This document shows, one piece after another, positions 25,069 to 36,065 of a stretch of 64,000 bases of DNA (position 1 is the stretch's first letter; each line of letters opens with the position of its first letter). The notes under the pieces were generated by a model. The model did no database searches and had not been told where the DNA came from. It saw only the letters and a list, made by a program, of their open reading frames with translations. Origin of the DNA: a methanogenic archaeon ISO4-H5 (GTDB taxonomy: Archaea > Thermoplasmatota > Thermoplasmata > Methanomassiliicoccales > Methanomethylophilaceae); the NCBI GenBank assembly GCA_001560915.1, contig CP014214.1, positions 806,001 through 870,000 on the forward strand, written 5' to 3'. The position numbers were made by a program, and so were the translations under genes.

Positions 25069-26157
25069 TCAGGATGATGCCAGGCATCCGCTCAGCAGAA
25101 TCGCCCTCTGTTCCTTGTACCGGCTGAATGTCTCCGTCTTCATCAGCAGCTTGCGGACAGCCCCTTTCATCGTGAACGCATGTATCGACTCTCCGAAGAG
25201 ACGTTTCACGTCGCTGAATCCGCATTCCGATTTCCAACGGCGTCCGTAACCGCTTTTCTCAACCCATTCCGCATATGGCATGCTGCACCAGAGTCTGGTC
25301 GCCTCTCCTCTGTAACGAGAACCGCCGTTCACAGGCTTCGTGTTCACTTTGAAGCTGGTGACGAATCTTGACCCGAGTCTTCCGCAGACGTGATCGAAGT
25401 TCTCCGCCGAGCTGTATGCCCCGTCGGCATACACAGTGCCGATACGGTGGCCTGCGGCCACCGCCGCATCCAGCAGGGGGATCATCAGCGGCGAATCGCC
25501 CACGGTCTTGTCCGTCACCGCGAACGCGATGACTTCTCCCGTATCCACATCGGACAGCACATGGAGTTTCAGCCATCCCCTGCGTTTCGGACCAGTCCCC
25601 CATTTCTCCTTCCTCCAGAGACAGGTGTTCGAGAGGTTGAATCCGGAAGAATCTATGCCTACGTTGCGCGGGCGGCCGATGACGTTGCTTCCTGCCCTGA
25701 GGATGTACGTTCCGCCATTCTCTGAAAGAAGCCTGTCCAGTATTTCCGCAGAACGTTCGAAGAGTCTGGAATACGAAGGTGCCTTCATGCCGTGGCCCTC
25801 CAGTATGGCCGCCGCCAAGCCGGCGGCCGTACGGTACGTGCCCTTGATCAGTGTCTGGAGGGAGATGATCCAGAAAATCATCGAATCACAGAAAGAATAA
25901 GGTCTCCCGACCTTCCCCGAGTTCATCTCCGCCAGTTCCTTCCGGAACAGCGGGATCCAGTTTCCGACCGAAGCCGATTCCCTGGAGAATTCGACCGGGG
26001 CGAGGTTGTTCGCCCGCTGTTCCTCGGAAGTCGGTTTCCTCGGCGGAAGCTTCTCTTTCTTAGGCGGTTCGGCGAATGTGCCCTTAACCTTCACATCGTA
26101 GGGGGTCATCCGAGCATCGGTCTTTAAATTCCTCTGAGCCTTATTCCTTCTTGTCAT
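25069..26157 (-). CDS. Transposase, IS5/IS903-like DDE type
   Basis: 362 residues. The N-terminal part has GRPYSFCDSMIFWIISLQT and SYSRLFERSAEI, typical of the IS903 branch. The DDE residues appear in GIDSSGF, YADGAYSS and WKSECGFSDVKRLFG. KRRGWLKLHVLSDVDTGEVI is the usual segment between the first two acids. The frame is intact. GGAG lies about 12 bases before the ATG and a TATTAAATAG box is about 110 bp upstream on the same strand. Confidence 0.92.
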   Translation of the reverse strand: MTRRNKAQRNLKTDARMTPYDVKVKGTFAEPPKKEKLPPRKPTSEEQRANNLAPVEFSRESASVGNWIPLFRKELAEMNSGKVGRPYSFCDSMIFWIISLQTLIKGTYRTAAGLAAAILEGHGMKAPSYSRLFERSAEILDRLLSENGGTYILRAGSNVIGRPRNVGIDSSGFNLSNTCLWRKEKWGTGPKRRGWLKLHVLSDVDTGEVIAFAVTDKTVGDSPLMIPLLDAAVAAGHRIGTVYADGAYSSAENFDHVCGRLGSRFVTSFKVNTKPVNGGSRYRGEATRLWCSMPYAEWVEKSGYGRRWKSECGFSDVKRLFGESIHAFTMKGAVRKLLMKTETFSRYKEQRAILLSGCLASS

Positions 26158-29983: not shown

Positions 29984-31390
29984 ATGATACCGGTGTGGAA
30001 GAAATACGGCATTGGAATGGTCATGCTCCTCGGCCTTCTGTTCATTTATTCGATATATCTCCTTACCATAAACCGCTTAGGCGATTTCGATACCCTGGCG
30101 GTGACCAAGATGGCTCTTGCCGTCTGCGGTATGGGATTATGCGTAATGCTCATTCTGACCTTCTTGCTCGATACCAAGATCGACCTCGGAGCGATATTCT
30201 TCCTCGTGATGATCATAGCCGATTTCTTCGCACTGATGACCAATCTAATCGATGCTTCGTTCATCGGGAGCAGTTCGTATGCCTGGCTCATCACGATTTC
30301 GCAGTATGCAAACCCTGCGCTCATCTACAGTATTATGCTGTTCTCATGGATGTATATCGCTTATATCAGCGGACCCCGGGGAAGGATGAGTATGAGGTTT
30401 GATGCGATAATCTCCGTGATCTTCGCATTCGGAATGGCGCTACTCTTCGTCAATATCTTCACCGGATACCTATTCACCGTCACCAAGGATGCTCTCCTGG
30501 TCTACGGACCTTTGAAGTGGCTGCTGATGGTGCCTACCGTATCAATGGTGGTGGTAGGTATATTCGGTACATACGCACTCGTCCGCGGCAAGCGTAAGAA
30601 ACTGGCATTGGCCGTCCTCATAATGGCGCCGGTCACATCGATGCTGCTGGACCTCTATTTCAGTCCTGTAGGAACCACCAACGAGATATTCTGTCTCGCA
30701 CTGCTCATCATCTACGGTAATTTCTACGTGGGTAGGAGCCAGGAACTCATCCTGAAGGAAGCGGAGCTCATGGAGCAGAGGGCGAAGATCCTCATCTCTC
30801 AGATCCAGCCCCACTTCCTGTATAACTCCCTGACCTCTATCATGAACATCAAGGGAAACCCCCCAGCTACCCGTGAGGCCATCTCGGAATTCGGGCTGTA
30901 TCTCAGAGGAAACATGGATTCCCTGAAGAAGAGCGGACCCGTCATGCTCCGTGATGAACTCGACCACGTGGAGACGTTCATCATCCTGCAGAAACTGGAG
31001 TGGGGGGACAAACTCGGATACAAGCTGGACATCAAGGTCAAAGATATCCTTGTTCCTGCCCAGACCCTCCAGATTCTTGTCGCTTACTGCATAGATTACG
31101 GACTGAAGCCTTCGGACGGCGGCACCATCTATGTGAATTCCTGGATTGCAGGCTCCAATTATGTGATAACAGTCGGTCATGACGGCAAGAGGTTCGACAC
31201 CTCCGCTCTGGATCAAGATGACTCGACATACCCGGGGGAGATGACATTCAACAGAATCAGCAACCGTCTTGCCGACCTGGTCGGCGGTAAAATCGAGATG
31301 TTCCGCAGGGACGGAGGCGGTAATCTGTTCCGTATCCTCATCCCGATTCCCAGGAAGACCCATACACGTCCATCTTATCAGGAGAGATGA
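29984..31390 (+). CDS. LytS-type membrane histidine kinase with degenerate ATP site
   Basis: 468 residues. Six or seven hydrophobic segments (about 10-250) precede a His_kinase (PF06580) module. The phosphoacceptor motif QIQPHFLYNSL is intact with His277. The ATP-binding N box is lost: VENAIKHG of its paralogue reads VAYCIDYG (366-373). The G1 motif DDGxGF reads HDGKRF (399-404). It can probably accept phosphate but not bind ATP. It is a paralogue of the kinase at 32903-34303. It overlaps the next gene by 4 bp. GAGAGGTGA precedes the ATG. Confidence 0.88.
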   Translation: MIPVWKKYGIGMVMLLGLLFIYSIYLLTINRLGDFDTLAVTKMALAVCGMGLCVMLILTFLLDTKIDLGAIFFLVMIIADFFALMTNLIDASFIGSSSYAWLITISQYANPALIYSIMLFSWMYIAYISGPRGRMSMRFDAIISVIFAFGMALLFVNIFTGYLFTVTKDALLVYGPLKWLLMVPTVSMVVVGIFGTYALVRGKRKKLALAVLIMAPVTSMLLDLYFSPVGTTNEIFCLALLIIYGNFYVGRSQELILKEAELMEQRAKILISQIQPHFLYNSLTSIMNIKGNPPATREAISEFGLYLRGNMDSLKKSGPVMLRDELDHVETFIILQKLEWGDKLGYKLDIKVKDILVPAQTLQILVAYCIDYGLKPSDGGTIYVNSWIAGSNYVITVGHDGKRFDTSALDQDDSTYPGEMTFNRISNRLADLVGGKIEMFRRDGGGNLFRILIPIPRKTHTRPSYQER

Positions 31391-32118
31391 AGATGATCCC
31401 TTCTGATCAGGAGATTGATGCTTGTCTGAACGGATTGAAAAGGTTCGATGTTACCTCTCCTGTACCCACGGTTCCGATTATTATCGGGGATGGATCCATC
31501 GCCGCTTTGAAGGACTTCGCCGATACCGTCGGAATCCGTCTTTTCTTCGTGGAAAGGACCTTCGTGGACCGCGACCATCTCAAGATAACCCCTGACCATC
31601 TCAAAGGTCTGGGTCTTGACATTCTGGGCGGGGTTCAGCTCGATTCCCATGTATACAACCGCGACATGGATGCCATCGATCTCTCGGCTCCTGCTGAGAT
31701 CAGGATCTATGTTCTGTACGAGGGCAGACCGTTCGGAATCATAGCCGACAATCCCGATCTGAAACCCCTGCTCTCGCTGAGGCCCGAAGACCGCGTCGCG
31801 GAGTTTGTCGAAGCCCGCAGGGCCAAGGCCCGGGAACGCATATCGCTCGATGTGAAGAAAGCGGACCCGGTCCACGAGAAGTTCTCGGAAACTCTGGTCC
31901 TGGACCGCCAGTTCCGTGCATTGACCGATGATTACGAGCGGTTCCAGTACGTCATGAAGATCGCCCGCAGGCCCGGTAACGATGCATTCAAGAAATCTAT
32001 TTTCAAAGCCGACGGTAGCGGATTCTCCATGGATCTCATCCGCCGCGTGTTATCCATCTGCGAGGAGAAGACGGGGGATGCCCCCGCCGAGACCAGGCAG
32101 ATGGTTTTCAGGGATTGA
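31387..32118 (+). CDS. Protein of unknown function coupled to the kinase gene
   Basis: 243 residues, no recognised family. The start overlaps the kinase stop (ATGA), so the two are translated together. Visible features are IPSDQEIDACLNGLKRF near the start, VPIIIGDGSIAALKDFADTVG, a middle part rich in beta-strand patterns (AEIRIYVLYEGRPFGIIAD), and a basic, probably helical C-terminal half. No signal peptide or membrane segment. Its place suggests a role in the same signalling route. Confidence 0.7.
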   Translation: MKMIPSDQEIDACLNGLKRFDVTSPVPTVPIIIGDGSIAALKDFADTVGIRLFFVERTFVDRDHLKITPDHLKGLGLDILGGVQLDSHVYNRDMDAIDLSAPAEIRIYVLYEGRPFGIIADNPDLKPLLSLRPEDRVAEFVEARRAKARERISLDVKKADPVHEKFSETLVLDRQFRALTDDYERFQYVMKIARRPGNDAFKKSIFKADGSGFSMDLIRRVLSICEEKTGDAPAETRQMVFRD

Positions 32119-32901
32119 TCACCTGTAGAACTGCTGAATGGATTTCTCGGCCCAGGGATACTGGGTCATGTATTCGCCGTAGAAGTTGTTGAACGCGTTC
32201 GGCAGGCCTTTGAGGTAGTCGTATGCATCGCAGCTGAAGTTGTCGGGGATGACGGAGTATTCGCTCCTGTCAAGGTTGACGATGCTTTCCGCATGGGCCT
32301 CCTCCAGGGTCTTCTGGAGTTCCTTGACGACCTTGGTGAGATAGTCCTGGGACTTCCTGGTGAACGCATCATCCTGGAGAAGCACGCTGCACAGTTCCCT
32401 CCTGGTGACGGCAGATCCTTTGCGGTCCACAAGATATGCAAGGAGCTCCTTCGCGAGTTTCCTCGAGAAGTGCAGGGTCTCGCCGTCGACGAATAGTTCG
32501 AAGTTTCCGAAGGTGCGGACGAAGATGCGCTTGTCGGTGGTCTCGACGGGGTTACGGAGATTCTCCAGCTCCCTTCTGACAAGACGTGTCGAGATGGGTT
32601 TCGTGATGTATCCGCTGGCATGCAGCGAGAACGCGTCGGGTGCGTATTCGGAGTAACCGGTGGAGAAGACGATGTTCACGCGGACGTTGATTGCTTTGAG
32701 TTTCTTAGCTAAATCAAGTCCGGACATGCCGGGCATACGGACGTCGAGGAACGCGATGTCCGGAGGGTTCTCTGTGGCGAACTTCAGCGCCTCCGTAGGA
32801 GAGTTGAATGCATTGATCTCCGCATCCTTCTCGCATTCGCCGATCGCGGTCACAAGGACATCGAGGGCATCTTCCTCATCATCTACTGCAAGTATTCTCA
32901 T
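32119..32901 (-). CDS. Response regulator with SARP-like winged-helix output
   Basis: 260 residues. The receiver domain (1-120) has all key residues: acidic pair Asp7/Asp8, phospho-acceptor Asp53 in FLDVRMPG, Thr81 and Lys101. An OmpR/SARP-type winged helix follows (about 123-200; FVRTFGNFELFVDGETLHFSRKLAKELLAYL), then a short BTAD-like helical tail (CDAYDYLKGLPNAFNNFYGEY). REC-SARP regulators are usual in bacteria. The gene lies directly behind the kinase at 32903-34303 and meets the coupled unknown gene tail-to-tail with no gap. Confidence 0.92.
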   Translation of the reverse strand: MRILAVDDEEDALDVLVTAIGECEKDAEINAFNSPTEALKFATENPPDIAFLDVRMPGMSGLDLAKKLKAINVRVNIVFSTGYSEYAPDAFSLHASGYITKPISTRLVRRELENLRNPVETTDKRIFVRTFGNFELFVDGETLHFSRKLAKELLAYLVDRKGSAVTRRELCSVLLQDDAFTRKSQDYLTKVVKELQKTLEEAHAESIVNLDRSEYSVIPDNFSCDAYDYLKGLPNAFNNFYGEYMTQYPWAEKSIQQFYR

Positions 32902-32902
32902 T

Positions 32903-34303
32903 TTATCTCATCTCCCCCCCCCCCATTGAGGTTCTGGGGATGGTTATCTTTACCATCGTGCCACGGCCGATCTCGCTCCGGATGGACAGTTTTCCGTTGG
33001 ACATCTCTTCCAGGCGCTGTTTCACGTTCGCCAGTCCGATGTGGCTCCTGTCATCCTCGTTCAGAGGTTTGGATACATCGAAACCGACCCCGTCATCCGA
33101 TATCGTTATGACATGTCCCTGTGCGGTGAGGCGGGTCGCAATCTCCACCGTGCCTCCGCCCTCTTTAACAGTCACACCGTGCTTGATGGCGTTCTCCACG
33201 AGCATCTGCAGGGTGAGTGCGGGTATTTGGAACGACGTATCCCTGATGTCATAACGCACGTTTAATTTTTCCTTGAATCTGAGCTTCTCCAGGTCGACGT
33301 AGGTCCTCACATGTTTCATCTCGGTGGCGAACGGAACCGTTTCGATCTGACCTAGGGTCTTGAGGTTTCCGCGCATGTAGTTGGAGAAGTGTTCGATGGC
33401 GGACACGGTCTCCGGCGGGTTACCCTCTATGTTCTTGATGGATTCCAGGGTGCGGGTCAGGACCTCGGGCTGGATATGGGCGATCATCATGGAGACCTTC
33501 CTCTCGGTGATTTCCGCATTCTTCCTGGTGATCTCCTGACCTTTCTCCACGTAGAAGTTTCCGTAAATGAGAATCAGAGAGAACAGCATTGCGATGTAAA
33601 TGACCCCGATACCGTAGAAGAAGTACTGGACCAGGGCACCTGCGATAGGCATGAGCGCGTAACTGTACAGTCCGATCTTCTTCTTGGATCCCTTTACATA
33701 ACGGTAAACGGCTATGGTGTTGAGCCCTATCATGCAGATAGGGGCGATCAACGATATCCAGTAGGTGTCGGCGCGTGCATAGAGTCCTGTCTCAGGGTCT
33801 ATCGTGAACACGGCCGAGGTCCAAGGGTTGGTGAGGATTATGCACAATCCTAGGAGCAGGATCGTATAATGGACGATCTCGATACCCCTCATCCAGCTAT
33901 CCCGTGTATCTGCCAGGTGCTTCACGTAAAGCCAGAACGTGACCAGGACCAGCAGGACGAATCCGTAGTTGTAATAGTTGATGATGTTGTTGAGAACGAC
34001 CTGGTTCGGGTTTCCGTCGACCATCCAGCTCTCGAAATCCCAGAAGAGCAGCATGCTCTCGAGGGTGATGAACGCCATGAAATAGATGGTACCGACATTG
34101 ATGCGGTGATCGAAAAGGATGGTTATGAACAGGAGGATACAGACCGCCATCCCGAAAATATCCATCGATTGGTTGACCACGACGTAGTACGGTCTGACCG
34201 AATAGATCGCATCAGCGTACTGTCTGCTGGTCACGATGAGCATCAGGGCGAGGACCGCCATGGAGATGTATCCCACCTTGCTCCAGTCCGTAACCTTGAC
34301 CAT
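32903..34303 (-). CDS. LytS-type membrane histidine kinase lacking the phosphoacceptor His
   Basis: 466 residues with the same layout as the kinase at 29984-31390. The ATP-binding part is intact: VENAIKHG with Glu370 and Asn371, DDGVGFD from Asp403, and HIGLANVKQRLE. In the phosphoacceptor motif QIQPHFLYN becomes HIQPEVLTR, with Glu280 in place of the His. Self-phosphorylation at this site is therefore not possible. A run of 11 G lies eight codons before the end. The stop is 2 bp before the response regulator start. Confidence 0.88.
   Translation of the reverse strand: MVKVTDWSKVGYISMAVLALMLIVTSRQYADAIYSVRPYYVVVNQSMDIFGMAVCILLFITILFDHRINVGTIYFMAFITLESMLLFWDFESWMVDGNPNQVVLNNIINYYNYGFVLLVLVTFWLYVKHLADTRDSWMRGIEIVHYTILLLGLCIILTNPWTSAVFTIDPETGLYARADTYWISLIAPICMIGLNTIAVYRYVKGSKKKIGLYSYALMPIAGALVQYFFYGIGVIYIAMLFSLILIYGNFYVEKGQEITRKNAEITERKVSMMIAHIQPEVLTRTLESIKNIEGNPPETVSAIEHFSNYMRGNLKTLGQIETVPFATEMKHVRTYVDLEKLRFKEKLNVRYDIRDTSFQIPALTLQMLVENAIKHGVTVKEGGGTVEIATRLTAQGHVITISDDGVGFDVSKPLNEDDRSHIGLANVKQRLEEMSNGKLSIRSEIGRGTMVKITIPRTSMGGGEMR
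32914..32924 (-). repeat. Homopolymer of eleven G near the kinase 3' end
   Basis: On the coding strand 11 consecutive G encode part of the ending SMGGGEMR. Such tracts slip easily. A change of length would swap only the last few residues and move the stop toward or into the response regulator start, so it could alter translational coupling. Confidence 0.8.
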
Positions 34304-34687: not shown

Positions 34688-35128
34688 ATGAGCTGCCCGG
34701 AAACCTTCGATGAGGCCCAGAGGAACGTGTACGAGCGTGCCGAGGGCGGGGATGCCGAGGCTATGTTCCTTCTCGCCTCCTTCTACCACAACGGAGACAA
34801 CGTCCCTGTGTCGGAGAGCGAGGCATTCGCGTGGTGCCGGAAGGCCGCTGAGGCGGGAAGCGTCAATGCTATGAACAATCTCGGTTCTCTCTACGGCAGC
34901 GGAATCGGAGTCAAACAATCCTTCGAGGAGGCTGTCCGCTGGTTCGCAAAAGCAGCCGATCTGGGTATGGCGGATGCACAGTACAATCTGGCAGTCATGT
35001 ACAACCGCGGACTCGGTGTGGAACAGGATTCAGTGAAGGGTGCGGAACTGCTCTGCAAGGCAGCGCAGCAGGGCCACGAACCCGCCATGGATGAGCTCGC
35101 CCGGATGTACCGCAGCGTTCAGAAATGA
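34688..35128 (+). CDS. Sel1-repeat protein
   Basis: 146 residues made of about three Sel1-like (TPR-type) repeats: AMFLLASFYHNGDNV..AFAWCRKAAEAGS, AMNNLGSLYGSGIGV..AVRWFAKAADLGM and AQYNLAVMYNRGLGV..GAELLCKAAQQGH. No signal peptide, so it acts in the cytoplasm, probably as a protein-binding scaffold. A related protein is at 35631-36065. Partner unknown. Confidence 0.85.
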   Translation: MSCPETFDEAQRNVYERAEGGDAEAMFLLASFYHNGDNVPVSESEAFAWCRKAAEAGSVNAMNNLGSLYGSGIGVKQSFEEAVRWFAKAADLGMADAQYNLAVMYNRGLGVEQDSVKGAELLCKAAQQGHEPAMDELARMYRSVQK

Positions 35129-35630: not shown

Positions 35631-36065
35631 ATGGAAGAAACCGTGATCTACTACTCGGGAAGGAACATCCGCAACCTCGTGAGGCTGGCGGACAGGGATG
35701 ACGACGCAGACGCCATGTTCGAGCTGGGCTACCGCTACTATTTCGGATACGGTGTCAGGCACAATATCGCCAAGGCACTTCTCTGGTTCTACAATGCCGC
35801 CATCCGCGGGGATGCGGACGGCTGCTACATGATGGGCACCATGCTCTCCTGCGGAGAAGGCGTGGAACTCGATGATGAGGAAGCAGTCTACTGGTTCCTC
35901 CAGGCTGCCGATCTGGGACACCTCGATTCCATGAACGAACTCGGTATCATGTTCGCAGAGGGATACGGGGTCGAACAGGACATGGAAGCCGCCAGGGAAT
36001 GGTGGCAGAAAGCCGCCGATGCCGGTTCCGAAGAGGCCAAGGAGAATCTCGAGCGTTCCGCCTGA
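35631..36065 (+). CDS. Sel1-repeat protein
   Basis: 144 residues with three Sel1-like repeats (AMFELGYRYYFGYGV..ALLWFYNAAIRGD, CYMMGTMLSCGEGV..AVYWFLQAADLGH, SMNELGIMFAEGYGV..AREWWQKAADAGS). No signal peptide. A paralogue of the gene at 34688-35128 but in a separate transcription unit. The role is presumably scaffolding of a protein complex. Partner unknown. Confidence 0.85.
   Translation: MEETVIYYSGRNIRNLVRLADRDDDADAMFELGYRYYFGYGVRHNIAKALLWFYNAAIRGDADGCYMMGTMLSCGEGVELDDEEAVYWFLQAADLGHLDSMNELGIMFAEGYGVEQDMEAAREWWQKAADAGSEEAKENLERSA

Follow-up and report, generated by a model that had tools for sequence, protein, structure and literature searches.

Reciprocal active-site loss in paired LytS-type histidine kinases of the methanogenic archaeon ISO4-H5 suggests a sensor kinase divided between two proteins

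How could two neighboring histidine kinases signal if each of them has lost the half of the active site that the other one keeps? This question arises from a locus of the methanogenic archaeon ISO4-H5 (Methanomassiliicoccales), located within a stretch of 64,000 nucleotides (contig CP014214.1, positions 806,001 to 870,000), which was analyzed as a whole and is referred to here as the window. In nearly all descriptions, histidine kinases are homodimers with both active sites present in each subunit. The two genes in question, here named A1 and B1, encode paralogous LytS-type membrane kinases, for which a first-pass annotation of the window had described complementary losses and had proposed an obligate heterodimer that feeds an adjacent response regulator. 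Both open reading frames (ORFs) were confirmed, A1 on the + strand and B1 on the - strand (Table 1), and the motifs named for them (His277, VAYCIDYG, and HDGKRF in A1; Glu280, Asn371, and DDGVGFD in B1) proved exact at the residue level. Our analysis suggests, with a probability that we put at roughly 0.8, that A1 and B1 constitute an obligate heteromeric sensor kinase, in which B1 would phosphorylate A1 in trans.

Reading of the A1 ORF residue by residue yields a canonical His box, SQIQPH277FLYNS, and the equivalent stretch of B1 is AHIQPE280VLTRT, with Glu in the place of His. Pfam recognizes PF06580 (His_kinase, cut-off 25.2) in both proteins, with 59 bits (5.4e-16) for A1 and 49 bits (6.5e-13) for B1, whereby HATPase_c reaches 22 bits (2.3e-4) in A1, which is under the curated cut-off of 26.4, and 48.5 bits (1.4e-12) in B1, which is above it. 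A1 possesses the phosphoacceptor His of LytS-type kinases and lacks the N-box Asn and the DxGxG of the G1 motif; B1 lacks the former and possesses both of the latter. Since each protein misses one half of the active site, neither A1 nor B1 is a complete LytS-type member alone, and ATP binding by the CA domain of A1 is probably gone, as judged from its motifs. By hydropathy only, 6 hydrophobic 19-mers lie above the threshold in the N-terminal half of A1 and 7 each in B1 and in the A2 and B2 proteins described below, and on this measure all four have a multi-pass N-terminal membrane sensor.

The genome of ISO4-H5 is represented by one contig of 1.94 Mb and is 99.9% complete. It encodes four PF06580 proteins, which form two reciprocal pairs, A1/B1 and a tandem pair, A2/B2, at a second locus. 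In A2 the ATP motifs are degenerate (VSSVIEYN, YNDSVTP), and in B2, where Asn replaces the acceptor His, they are intact (VENAIKHG, DDGVGFD). As is the mark of a split kinase, acceptor His and ATP site are found on different proteins of one genome. Searches with PF02518 and PF06580, which did not include a separate one for DHp families of the PF00512 type, revealed no complete histidine kinase. Other HATPase_c matches were discarded as kinases, since their sequences read as GyrB, TopoVI-B, Hsp90, and an unrelated MORC-like ATPase, and one further PF02518 match outside the pairs, which contains a stop, was regarded as chance. As far as the sequence tells, the detectable histidine-kinase repertoire is one of half-kinases only.

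The response regulator encoded between A1 and B1 carries the receiver residues DD7-8, Asp53, and Lys, and is the only REC-HTH protein that a genome-wide REC search found in ISO4-H5. Full-length relatives of it occur in 7 of the 102 genomes of the family, exactly the 7 with PF06580 kinases, and weaker matches in other genomes cover the receiver domain only. A second regulator candidate (G000:C1:455254-456150, L015; G000 being the ISO4-H5 genome), a divergent receiver-like protein of ~300 amino acids present in 12 of 14 genus genomes, was rejected, since it is not tied to the kinases and occurs in 6 of the 8 genus genomes without them. Given the second pair and the fact that no complete kinase was found, the regulator, which does lie next to the kinases as the first-pass annotation had it, is probably not the property of one pair but the sole regulator, common to both. 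The A2/B2 pair probably works like A1/B1 and would probably converge on it.

In the family as a whole, PF06580 was found in 7 of 102 genomes, and among 400 genomes sampled from the class in 3. Within the genus, five sister genomes carry the kinases, with 4 or 5 copies each, and eight others do not. The kinase-bearing sister and related genomes are draft assemblies of 68-93% completeness, and the comparisons exclude the gene parts that contig problems had truncated or shifted out of frame (G008_A2, G008_B1). G008 is RUG13270, the sole match when genome contigs were searched with B1. The comparison comprised 12 A-type and 13 B-type proteins in 12 pairs. All 12 A-type proteins have the phosphoacceptor His and none of the 13 B-type proteins does, in which E, Y, N, A, R, or T stands in its place. 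The N-box Asn is kept in all 13 B-type proteins but in only one of the 12 A-type proteins, and both G1 glycines in 13/13 compared to 2/12. All 27 homologues scanned matched PF06580. HATPase_c was recognized in each of the 15 scanned proteins that are B-type or complete, as compared to 4 of the 12 A-type ones. Taken pair by pair, each of the 12 comprises exactly one His-bearing partner and one or more intact ATP sites, whereby the ATP site of the His-bearing partner is damaged in 11 of them and that of the other partner is intact in all; no protein lacks both halves. Since the pattern is found again in each of the 12 homologous pairs, it is not due to chance, and since the split is kept or repeated in every pair found, each half-kinase probably works only together with its partner.

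The expectation that both losses occur together in one genome held as well, for each genome with an A-type kinase has a B-type kinase adjoining it or in the same small cluster. Locus 1 is found in six genomes with A1 and the following gene X on one strand and B1 and the regulator gene convergent to them (in G008 over two contigs), so that two membrane kinases and one regulator are kept at one locus in all six. Locus 2 was observed in five genomes, in each of which A2 is followed in tandem by B2. In G009, which yielded no A2/B2 pair, there is a third reciprocal pair (L051:1122-5449) that is very divergent and very fast evolving (tree branches of 3.6 and 2.4); behind it lies a regulator of its own, with 55% identity to that of the window. 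In G003, a further B2-like copy is located at the edge of a contig. The B1 of this genome (G003_B1; L039:6541-7986, - strand) contains one in-frame TAG at the position of Y335 of B1, a Tyr that is invariant in the other aligned B-type and complete kinases. Methanogens of this kind use pyrrolysine. The TAG may reflect read-through, a sequencing error, or a nonsense mutation.

Each protein is most strongly maintained in the half that it keeps. The His helix is 87-90% identical within A1/A2 but 54-58% within B1/B2, whereas identity of the CA domain is 63-64% within B and 31-37% within A; for the N-box stretch it amounts to 92% within B1 and 89% within B2. Ratios of nonsynonymous to synonymous substitution (dN/dS; Nei-Gojobori, G000 versus G008), which are rough at a dS of 0.6-1.4, are 0.09 for the DHp and 0.27 for the CA domain of A1, 0.07 and 0.30 for A2, 0.22 and 0.17 for B1, and 0.33 and 0.16 for B2, respectively. 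As all of these values are well below 1, neither half is decaying and both are under purifying selection. The fact that a CA-like domain is still kept in A suggests a structural role.

These data lead to a model in which A1 and B1 would be complementary halves of one membrane sensor kinase. Since both keep the membrane sensor and the DHp dimerisation helices, they would most likely pair via the latter. B1 would bind ATP in its CA domain and phosphorylate the His of A1 in trans through the common DHp bundle, and A1 would pass the phosphate on to Asp53 of the regulator. Because both partners keep a membrane sensor of their own, the receptor could need two inputs. The physical heterodimer, the trans phosphorylation, the transfer to the regulator of the window, and a strict pairing within each pair are what we infer from the sequences.

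Several observations weigh against this model. It requires phosphorylation in trans, and LytS-type kinases may act either in this way or in cis. In G009, A1 is intact at both sites beside a His-less B1, so that A could act alone in one species, and a separate complete LytS-type kinase is encoded elsewhere (L049:307-1761; His, N-box, and G1 intact), beside which no regulator was seen on the short contig. In G003, A1 has lost the N-box Asn (to Lys) and kept G1. The claim that both losses occur together is refined by this: no ATP-less A was found beside a His-bearing B, and His was lost once without loss of the ATP site (G009). AlphaFold single-chain models, for which few sequences were available, were unusable (pLDDT of 38.5 for A1 and 37.0 for gene X). 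Furthermore, B1 has a His276 one helical turn before Glu280 (AHIQPE), which is a possible displaced acceptor. If it were used, B1 might work in homodimeric form, and A1 would then be a partner that inhibits or senses. The motif AHIQPE is present in B1 of G000 and G008 only, however, whereas Q, R, or N occupies this position in the eleven other B-type proteins, among them the B2 of ISO4-H5, and A1 keeps an invariant canonical His box, which makes such an arrangement very improbable.

It might also be that there is no fixed pairing and that A1 and A2 as well as B1 and B2 are interchangeable, in which case up to four heterodimers, A1B1, A1B2, A2B1, and A2B2, would all act on one regulator. Four half-kinases do face a single REC-HTH regulator in the genome, and the His helix of A1 and A2 and the N-box of B1 and B2 are nearly identical within their classes. 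We nevertheless consider free exchange rather unlikely, since each pair is co-localized in all genomes where both ends were seen, the pairs are old and divergent with sensor regions only 26-47% identical even within one class, and the third pair, in G009, has a regulator of its own. It is improbable that B is a phosphatase or an allosteric modulator and that A is charged by another donor, with no transfer from B to A. Pseudo-histidine kinases can be modulators, as in the case of the ChrS pseudokinase and DivL (PMC9491836), but the searches with PF02518 and PF06580 yielded no further histidine kinase in the genome that could charge A, and the ATP site of B, for which a pure modulator would have no obvious use, is whole and under the strongest constraint in the protein (CA dN/dS of 0.16-0.17). 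The idea that the genes are decaying pseudogenes that lost different motifs by chance was rejected as hardly credible: while many motif positions are substituted and the replacements at the His position of B vary, the frames are open in six genomes (except for the TAG in G003_B1 and some breaks on draft contigs of G008), dN/dS is well below 1, one His and one ATP site are left in 12/12 pairs, and it would have to be explained why no pair has lost the same half twice.

In order to deduce how the proposed split arose, complete relatives are informative. G085, from another genus of the same family, encodes two complete tandem kinases with a convergent regulator that is 46% identical to that of the window, and the rumen Butyrivibrio plasmid pNP243 carries a single complete kinase of this kind beside a related regulator. 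Together, they suggest acquisition from bacteria followed by tandem duplication, whereby a complete LytS-type kinase was probably acquired together with its regulator. In the trees, A1, A2, B1, and B2 each form one group, and A1 joins A2 and B1 joins B2. When the CA domain is left out, the latter groupings receive no more than 76/83 and 66/61 support, and a test of A1+B1 or A2+B2 as alternatives does not reject them (p-AU 0.3). As the grouping is not decisive, the split occurred either once before the duplication of the pair or twice. If the ATP site was never regained, the Asn would have been lost at least two times, always in A, and three to four times if G009_A1 is placed next to G000 and G008, as is preferred (support 81/69). 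The G009_A1 exception and the complete pair of G085 suggest the order duplication, loss of His in B, and loss of the ATP site in A; G009_A1 beside its His-less B1 looks like an intermediate stage. The sister genomes appear to preserve the single steps, from the complete tandem (G085) via a His-less B with a complete A (G009) and a half-broken A (G003) to the fully reciprocal state (G000 and others).

A wider reading, which we put forward tentatively and would not yet bet on, is that the whole two-component repertoire consists of obligate heteromeric half-kinases, with the pairs as AND gates and two gates on one regulator, having evolved by a ratchet. There would be two such pairs (three in G009), each firing only upon the meeting of an acceptor sensor with a kinase sensor, with partners possibly exchanged between the gates, and the ratchet would have begun with loss of His in one paralogue and continued with repeated loss of the ATP site in the other.

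With regard to the neighborhood of the kinases, A1 and gene X share 4 bases (ATGA) at their junction, so that both are probably co-translated. Full-length relatives of gene X are present in the order A1-X in G003, G004, G006, and G009, and across two contigs in G008. Since partial, weaker relatives occur in kinase-less genomes of the same genus (G011) and of another genus (g4), gene X belongs to a wider unnamed family. Upstream regions were inspected only visually, and we make no claim of an operator motif. A transposase-like ORF of 362 amino acids is located at window position 25069-26157 (- strand), ~3.8 kb upstream of A1. At the B1 end there are two small Sel1-repeat-like proteins (34688-35128 and 35631-36065, + strand), which also adjoin B1 in G008 (L047).

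Table 1. Coordinates of the kinase loci of ISO4-H5 (window positions unless a locus prefix is given).
Feature	Position	Strand	Evidence
A1, LytS-type membrane kinase, putative phosphoacceptor partner	29984..31390	+	468 aa ORF; PF06580; motif table
A1 His277 codon, in SQIQPHFLYNS	30812..30814	+	Alignment column invariant
A1 degenerate N-box VAYCIDYG, Tyr368 for Asn	31079..31102	+	Motif comparison
A1 degenerate G1 motif HDGKRF (within GHDGKRF)	31178..31195	+	Motif comparison
Gene X, 243 aa	31387..32118	+	No Pfam or NCBIfam match; relatives next to A1
Response regulator, receiver and winged-helix C-terminal part	32119..32901	-	PF00072 1e-20; PF00486 1.8e-4
B1, LytS-type membrane kinase, putative ATP partner	32903..34303	-	466 aa ORF; PF06580 and HATPase_c; motif table
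B1 intact G1 motif DDGVGFD (within SDDGVGFD)	33077..33097	-	Motif comparison
B1 intact N-box VENAIKHG (Asn371)	33176..33199	-	Motif comparison
B1 Glu280 codon at phosphoacceptor position	33464..33466	-	Position never His in 13 B-type homologues
A2	L005:3796-5163		Tandem with B2, 0.4 Mb from window pair; SQIQPHFLYNS kept, ATP motifs lost
B2	L005:5165-6544		Tandem with A2; RIEPNFLNEA (Asn for His), ATP motifs intact

If the proposed mechanism is true, an archaeon runs its detectable histidine-aspartate signaling without any self-sufficient histidine kinase. This would concern a group of gut-type methane-making archaea in which the split is kept or repeated in every pair found, and the series of sister genomes makes it testable how subunits become dependent on each other after a duplication and whether receptors can function as strict gates with two inputs. 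In the open-access literature, neither a paper on such a system in Methanomassiliicoccales nor the phrase "heterodimeric histidine kinase" was found. The pattern of a split two-component system, as claimed by the first-pass annotation, is supported for an archaeon, but the idea of a split kinase itself is not new (PMC3591291; PMC7656254; PMC12675982). In Rhodobacter sphaeroides, neither CheA3 nor CheA4 autophosphorylates alone; phosphorylation occurs in trans and then proceeds to the regulator (PMC3591291). There, too, the acceptor His is on one protein and the ATP domain on the other, which is biochemically proven. However, these are chemotaxis proteins of the CheA family that lost whole domains (P1 in CheA4, P3 and P4 in CheA3), whereas the window pair consists of full-length membrane LytS-type sensors that retain their domains and are broken in the active sites only. 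Pfam gives only PF06580/HATPase_c for A1 and B1, with neither the CheA domain set (P1-P5) nor a chemotaxis context; by analogy, they would work like a split CheA but are not one. FasB and FasC of group A Streptococcus are likewise two multi-pass sensor-kinase-like proteins with one regulator. They form hetero- but not homodimers in two-hybrid assays, which together with genetics back the heterodimer, the kinase domain of FasC is dispensable, and H246 of FasC is the proposed acceptor (PMC12675982). In contrast to the archaeal case, this system is bacterial, FasB keeps candidate histidines, FasC is only a proposed pseudokinase, and reciprocity is not established, whereas the loss described here is reciprocal over 12 pairs. 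In Synechocystis, a kinase split over two genes, Hik36/Hik43 (PilL-N/PilL-C), acts with Rre6 (PMC7656254), but this is a CheA homologue cut into two genes and not a reciprocal active-site loss in full-length duplicates. Closest in kind to a precursor is the Butyrivibrio plasmid pNP243 (rumen Lachnospiraceae), whose PF06580 kinase, 31% identical to the G085_K1 kinase over 62% of it, is encoded beside a regulator with REC and a C-terminal domain; a second plasmid regulator is 40% identical to that of the window. It differs in having one complete kinase and no split, and such a single kinase is a plausible ancestor type. Overall, split kinases are known, and what is new is an archaeal LytS-type variant in which full-length paralogues show reciprocal losses at the level of single positions, over several pairs and genomes.

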